This document shows, piece after piece, positions 18,922 to 24,843 of a DNA stretch of 64,000 nucleotides. The position numbers were made by a program, and so were the translations under genes. Where the stretch lies: positions 86,503 to 150,502 of the forward strand of contig NZ_CAMAYF010000003.1 of NCBI RefSeq assembly GCF_945862485.1. Direction: 5' to 3'. The stretch comes from Sphingorhabdus sp. EL138. GTDB taxonomy: Bacteria; Pseudomonadota; Alphaproteobacteria; Sphingomonadales; Sphingomonadaceae. The notes under the pieces are model-generated. The model was not told the DNA's origin and made no database searches. It worked only from the letters and a program-made list of their open reading frames with translations. How positions within the stretch are numbered: position 1 is the stretch's first letter; the number at the start of each line of letters is the position of its first letter.

Positions 18922-18937
18922 TTAGGGTCAGGACCAC
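18922..18937. repeat. Isolated 16-bp copy of the MITE-like element terminus (TTAGGGTCAGGACCAC)
   Basis: Identical to 24486-24501 at the left end of the palindromic element. Confidence 0.6.
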
Positions 18938-24387: not shown

Positions 24388-24843
24388 ATGTCCGCCATTG
24401 GTGTAATCGCAACATTAACCGTTGCCGAAGGCAAGAACGCAGATTTTGAGGCTGTTTTTGCAGAATTGTCTGCAGCGGTTCGGGCTTAGGGTCAGGACCA
24501 CTTAAATCCACCTTCGCGGCGTTAAAATGGCTTCGATCTCAAAGCGAAATGACTTTGCAGGCAAAACGACTGCCTGACAGCGGCCATTTCACTTCGATAT
24601 CTTTGCCATTTTAACGCCGCGAAGGTGGATTTAAGTGGTCCTGACCCTCGTGAACCGGGGAACCTATTTTATACGCTCACCCGGTCACGGTCCAACCCGC
24701 AAGTGTACAAAGTGCTTGAACAATATGTCGATCAAGACGCGCTCACCGCACATGGCGCCAGCGCCTATTTCAAGGCCGCTGGCCCCAAGCTTGGCCCCTG
24801 CCTCGCCGGCGCACCCGAGATTGAGTATCTTGACGCGCTATAA
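24388..24843 (+). pseudogene. YgiN/ABM-family (putative quinol) monooxygenase interrupted by a MITE-like element
   Basis: 5' part MSAIGVIATLTVAEGKNADFEAVFAELSAAVRA then TAG; 3' part REPGNLFYTLTRSRSNPQVYKVLEQYVDQDALTAHGASAYFKAAG in the same frame after the palindromic insertion. Confidence 0.85.
24487..24648. mobile_element. MITE/REP-like near-palindromic insertion, 44-bp perfect terminal inverted repeats
   Basis: AGGGTCAGGACCACTTAAATCCACCTTCGCGGCGTTAAAATGGC (24488-24531) is the exact reverse complement of 24605-24648; interior arms also partly complementary; no transposase ORF. Confidence 0.85.

Follow-up and report, generated by a model that had tools for sequence, protein, structure and literature searches.

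An ABM (YgiN-like) monooxygenase gene of Sphingorhabdus sp. EL138 (genome G000) is interrupted by a genuine MITE insertion that was shortened in place. The best joint explanation, to which we give a probability of about 0.85, is that the insert derives by shortening from a non-autonomous MITE that targets TA and has IS5-family ends. The disrupted gene is the ordinary part of this case, and the architecture of the element, which is kept across several orders of Alphaproteobacteria, is the unusual part. An IS5-family transposase with the same ends would have mobilised the element in trans. The element would then have landed in the ABM gene, placing a stop after codon 33, and a folded arm may later have been skipped during replication, leaving an uninterrupted hairpin.

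The insert and its junctions

The gene lies within the window, which is the whole 64,000-nt stretch of DNA that was analysed. The features of the site are listed below.

24388-24486, plus strand: 5' part of the ABM (YgiN-like) monooxygenase gene, 33 codons, ending in GCT before the insert
24487-24489, plus strand: left junction TAG, an in-frame stop; TA at 24487-24488 corresponds to the dinucleotide that flanks members of the family on the left
24489-24647, no strand assigned: MITE core, GGGTC...GACCC, 159 nt, shortened form of the 263-266-nt element
24489-24507, no strand assigned: left terminal repeat, GGGTCAGGACCACTTAAAT, compared with IS5-family ends
24489-24519, no strand assigned: outer stem, left strand, 31 nt
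24519-24520, no strand assigned: deletion junction, where 105 nt (the other arm and the mini-hairpin) are absent relative to the same site in the congeners G009 and G026
24520-24616, no strand assigned: arm B, 97 nt, the sole hairpin arm left in the window copy
24617-24647, no strand assigned: outer stem, right strand, 31 nt
24629-24647, no strand assigned: right terminal repeat, reverse complement of the left repeat
24649-24843, plus strand: 3' part of the ABM gene, codon 34 onward, stop included

The original prediction described a palindrome that splits an ABM gene in frame, and the sequence agrees with this description. Positions 24605-24648 are the exact reverse complement of 24488-24531, giving a 44-nt inverted repeat. 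The inner arms are partly complementary, as claimed, and a single long hairpin is predicted: the wider arms (24488-24551 and 24585-24648) span 64 nt with 91% complementarity and a 33-nt spacer. The single-stranded DNA fold of the insert reaches -68.3 kcal/mol against -21.4 +/- 3.0 for shuffled sequences (z = -15.5), and none of 200 shuffles equalled it. Deletion of 24487-24648 (162 nt) rejoins CGG GCT to CGT GAA and restores the frame, also as proposed. The immediate in-frame stop ascribed to the insert is the TAG directly after GCT, and two further in-frame stops follow within the window insert. Both gene halves match Pfam ABM (PF03992), the 3' half with E = 8e-11 and the 5' half with E = 7e-4 (20.2 bits, slightly below the family cut-off of 23.1), in keeping with a split YgiN/ABM gene.

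The left TA is kept at the window site. The right junction reads TC (24648-24649) in place of TA, with one extra base, so that a clean target duplication is not visible there. CT had been offered as a possible duplicated flank; this did not hold, since members of the family are as a rule bordered by TA at each end (70 of 90 distinct copies).

The element family

Further copies, which the mobile-element reading called for, were found in the same genome and in relatives. A 161-nt query matched G000 in six or more places and, in addition, at separate ends; it gave matches in 24 of 61 genomes, namely G000 and 23 of 36 congeners. No match came from the 24 genomes that belong to other families in the order. 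Genome-by-genome counts of this search are matches rather than copies, as both strands of one palindrome are listed. The usual copy is 263-266 nt long, and exactly 263 nt in 48 of the 90 distinct copies; shorter classes of 30-40, 80, 158-159, 166-178, 192 and 203-204 nt also occur. The 162-nt insert, first taken for the element as such, is a shortened derivative of a native form of about 263 nt. The distinct copies give the flank consensus YTA-GGG...CCC-TAR, with a pyrimidine before the left TA and a purine after the right TA.

The reading as a MITE-like, non-autonomous element is well supported by these copies. Elements read whole are 159-271 nt long and carry terminal inverted repeats. No transposase was found in their reading frames, as the original prediction had stated, and this sets them apart from autonomous IS5 elements. 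The family shows a TA target site duplication, of which the window site retains the left TA only. Many copies occupy differing sites, relatives have empty sites, and the ends match those of autonomous IS5-family elements (L157, L194 and L092; 19/19 end positions).

Strict end patterns, which fix the gap between the ends at 210-240 nt, were found in 2 of 385 genomes across the class, in 4 of 199 genomes of the G320 family and in one stretch among viral contigs. On these counts, the element family is patchy. The open-access literature searched gave no description of the element.

IS5-family ends and the proposed helper transposase

The element end TAGGGTCAGGACC(A/T).. is also found outside the genus, among other places at the ends of IS elements of about 850 bp. 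In Sphingobium sp. Ant17 (L157), such an IS reads GGGTCAGGACCTATTAAAT...GAGTCCTGACCC with TA on both sides, and its 19-bp end GGGTCAGGACCTATTAAAT is identical to that of the element. The TATTAAAT variant of the left terminal repeat likewise matches the end of complete IS5-family elements exactly. In Sphingomonas panni (L194), the right end is GAGTCCTGAGCC; the right ends of L194 and L096 carry one change. In Rhizobium hainanense (L092), an element-type end stands directly before a transposase gene. Thus, 19 of 19 terminal bases are common to the element and full IS5-family elements of sphingomonads and rhizobia, and similar IS ends occur in the congeners G002, G063, G012 and G022. Both ends of the element resemble the left end of the IS. 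The transposase, scanned as the first of two ORFs, matches NF033580 (transpos_IS5_3) with E 5e-30 and 105 bits, slightly below the cut-off of 110, as well as PF13340 and PF01609. From their TA target and two-ORF layout, we take these IS elements to be IS427-like. They contain a transposase and no cloverleaf, and the element shares their ends alone.

A candidate for the parent transposase that the original prediction expected was thus found, as part of full IS elements with the same ends, in other genomes; in G000 itself (about 97% complete), no close relative was matched. The same search gave no match in the MITE-rich G019 (near-complete, 8 contigs). Among 37 genomes of the genus, the helper IS is present in 2 of 24 MITE carriers and in 7 of 13 non-carriers (Fisher p = 0.004, with kinship ignored). 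Helpers may be gained and lost over time, or a different enzyme may be at work. Two candidates for the helper were rejected. Two inward-facing ends 2.5 kb apart in G019 enclose only ordinary genes. A many-copy IS of G026, found near two MITE copies, has different ends (GGCCACAGACTCATT) and is inserted at an adjoining TA. This other IS5-like element, GGCCACAGACTCATT...GAGTATGTGACC, has eight near-identical copies in G026, and in two of these eight places (L241 and L245) it occupies the TA immediately next to a MITE.

A palindromic repeat in many copies would also be expected of a REP/BIME-type palindrome mobilised by a Y1 (RAYT) transposase. The TA flanks and IS5-type ends of the element argue against this origin, and with no match to PF01797 in G000 it was rejected as highly improbable.

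A conserved predicted cloverleaf

The native element of about 263 nt is predicted to fold into a cloverleaf, in which a 31-bp outer stem carries two long arms that flank a 9-nt mini-hairpin. The fold was compared in an alignment of full-length Sphingorhabdus members (L002, L183 and L015) with elements of G320, G638, G590 and G505, four genomes of one family that appears to resemble Rhodobacteraceae. The alignment also included an IMG/VR contig (L240) and elements of Stappia (L158), Hongsoonwoonella (L098), Ensifer (L120), S. fredii (L105), UBA6174 (L177) and Micavibrio (L156). The outer stem measures 31 nt on the left (32 in L240) and 31 nt on the right (33 in Micavibrio). Arm A is 94-100 nt and arm B 94-99 nt long, and the mini-hairpin is 9-10 nt, or 13 nt in Micavibrio. 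The same geometry is therefore found across several orders of Alphaproteobacteria, while the sequences have almost wholly changed. Changes on both sides of a pair are seen in 66 of 87 consensus pairs. Paired cells make up 90.5% of the alignment, against 67.7% after shuffling and 31-46% when the structure is slid, a control that leans toward the structure because the structure was derived from the same alignment. Relatedness among the interiors is distant (pairwise z-scores from 1.5 to 15.9), so that descent from a common ancestor, with much turnover of the sequence, is more probable than independent origins.

The 66 compensated pairs could also be expected of a structured RNA gene that is incidentally mobile and whose fold is selected in the transcript. 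Selection on RNA would favour G.U on one strand. In 58 Sphingorhabdus copies placed in one orientation, a structure drawn without G.T gave 39 pairs with any G.T and 42 with any A.C. This balance shows no preference for G.U on the fixed strand and points to the conserved cloverleaf as a feature of the DNA rather than of an RNA. An earlier count of mismatches on the RNAalifold structure had leaned to G.T, suggesting selection on RNA; it was set aside, since a structure that permits G.T favours G.T by construction. Identity with a known RNA family was also rejected, as a search of Rfam returned nothing across the element, either in the window or at the loci of six relatives. We consider the RNA gene very improbable.

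For the DNA fold itself, we infer that the cloverleaf may be kept for one of two reasons: self-folding could pair both ends into one transposase-binding duplex, or template switching could mend palindromes. If template switching during replication homogenises palindromes and common descent preserves the arm lengths, the cloverleaf could be functionless. Such an origin is compatible with the MITE reading and opposes only selection on the shape. The Watson-Crick pairing with balanced G.T and A.C mismatches, the detectable common descent of the interiors and the frequency of arm-loss copies are all consistent with it, and we regard it as possible but less likely than not. However, template switching accounts for the pairing and not for the near-constant segments (31/94-100/9-13/94-99/31-33), and the mini-hairpin stays in position even in elements with barely alignable interiors. 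We tentatively propose, as a rather doubtful reading, that these elements form a MITE superfamily spanning the Alphaproteobacteria, and that what is selected in it is the DNA cloverleaf itself, with its near-fixed dimensions. If it is true, a folded strand or an extruded cruciform would offer the paired 31-bp end duplex as a transposase substrate, and shape would be conserved while sequence drifts.

Shortening and decay in place

The shortened MITE at the ABM site can be compared with longer forms at the same position. The congeners G009 and G026, which like G000 are draft assemblies, carry a 264-nt form of the element there, and a single position in 266 separates their inserts. Compared with the G009 insert, the window copy shows changes at 2 of 161 positions and one exact gap of 105 nt, to which it has lost one arm, the mini-hairpin and no other part. 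The missing stretch reads TTTGAGG...CTTCGGA in G009. At a second site, L013 (G026, 159 nt), L015 (G033, 264 nt) and L144 (192 nt) share flanks, and L013 lacks, relative to L015, exactly the same 105 nt in the opposite orientation. The identical loss at the two sites indicates at least two separate deletions in place. Arm loss is frequent among the copies.

Decay proceeds to much smaller remnants. In G000, eight solitary ends were found, and six of them have the form TA-GGGTCAGGACC(C)-TA. These six TA-bracketed remnants of 11-12 nt are L042, L047, L049, L050, L051 and L056; in L056, the second TA could be part of the element. The scar L051 is absent in nine of the relatives shown and present in G034. 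At the position of L047, relatives have GGGTCAGGACCC, GGGTCCCGACCC, GGTCCCGACCC, GGTCCTGACC or nothing. Some of these scars would result from deletions between copies of a short direct repeat, GACC or GGTC, within the ends, and transposase footprints are an alternative source. The 80-nt class (L201, L107 and L164) has kept nothing but the outer stem and the bases of the arms. The junction ATGGC of L201 matches a direct repeat at the bases of both arms, suggesting slippage as the origin of this form. The series from 263 nt down to 11-nt scars, with an exact 105-nt deletion at two sites, is useful for the study of palindrome deletion.

History of the insertion in the ABM gene

The search for empty sites, which the original prediction had proposed, returned intact ABM orthologs that lack the insert and read CGG GC[C/T] AAT GAA CCG, the empty sites being CGGGC[C/T]AATGAACCGGGG. 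The expectation that orthologs would not share the insert thus stands in part: empty orthologs exist, but the full-size element in G009 and G026 means that the window insertion is not private. The genes flanking the insert in these two congeners are 81-98% identical, window by window, whereas the inserts are nearly identical, and the inserts therefore look younger than the species split. Since the inserts are far more similar than the genes surrounding them, the insert allele may have spread among several species by recombination. In the ABM tree, in which the G014 sequence is misoriented and its long branch false, the intact G019 gene stands beside that of G009 (support 96/91), and the three insertion carriers do not form a clade. 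The history is thus not one of simple descent.

It is conceivable that the ABM protein is still produced across the insert by re-initiation, bypass or RNA removal. The net insert lengths of 162 and 267 nt are multiples of three in all three carriers. The codon differences between the broken genes of the window (24388-24843) and G026 (L082) are mostly silent (17 silent, 5 non-silent), and the halves contain no additional stops. However, a multiple of three is expected once in three by chance and the 105-nt loss keeps it, and translation of the window insert meets the three in-frame stops. The inserts, with 1-3 differences, are much younger than the divergence of the genes, so that the silent excess probably predates the insertion for the most part. 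Continued production is accordingly a slim prospect.

Comparison with known elements

Bacterial MITEs are usually viewed as worn-down IS elements whose inner sequence is unimportant. RUP, Correia, NEMIS and ERIC are TA-targeting bacterial MITEs that are small, lack a transposase, have terminal repeats and fold into hairpins. By this general description, the present element shares their size, lack of transposase, terminal repeats, TA target and hairpins; it differs in its four-part, near-fixed cloverleaf, which several orders have in common although their sequences differ. The architecture of the interior stays constant from order to order, and covariation at the DNA level is strong, so that selection on the shape of a MITE becomes directly testable. 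MITEPye1 of Paracoccus yeei has a strong predicted fold, is described as folding into long stem-loops, has ends matching the IS1182 family and is proposed to be mobilised in trans (PMC11578231). It resembles the present element as an alphaproteobacterial MITE with a strong predicted fold, and differs in its long stem-loops and in its IS1182 ends, those of the element being IS5-type.

Two other places in the window are of note. On the minus strand, 40726-40800 matches the Rfam family suhB/mmgR sRNA with 43 bits (cut-off 41). At 18923-18937, a solitary end, TAGGGTCAGGACCAC, lies just upstream of a possible gene start (ATG 18955) and is probably the remnant of another copy of the element.
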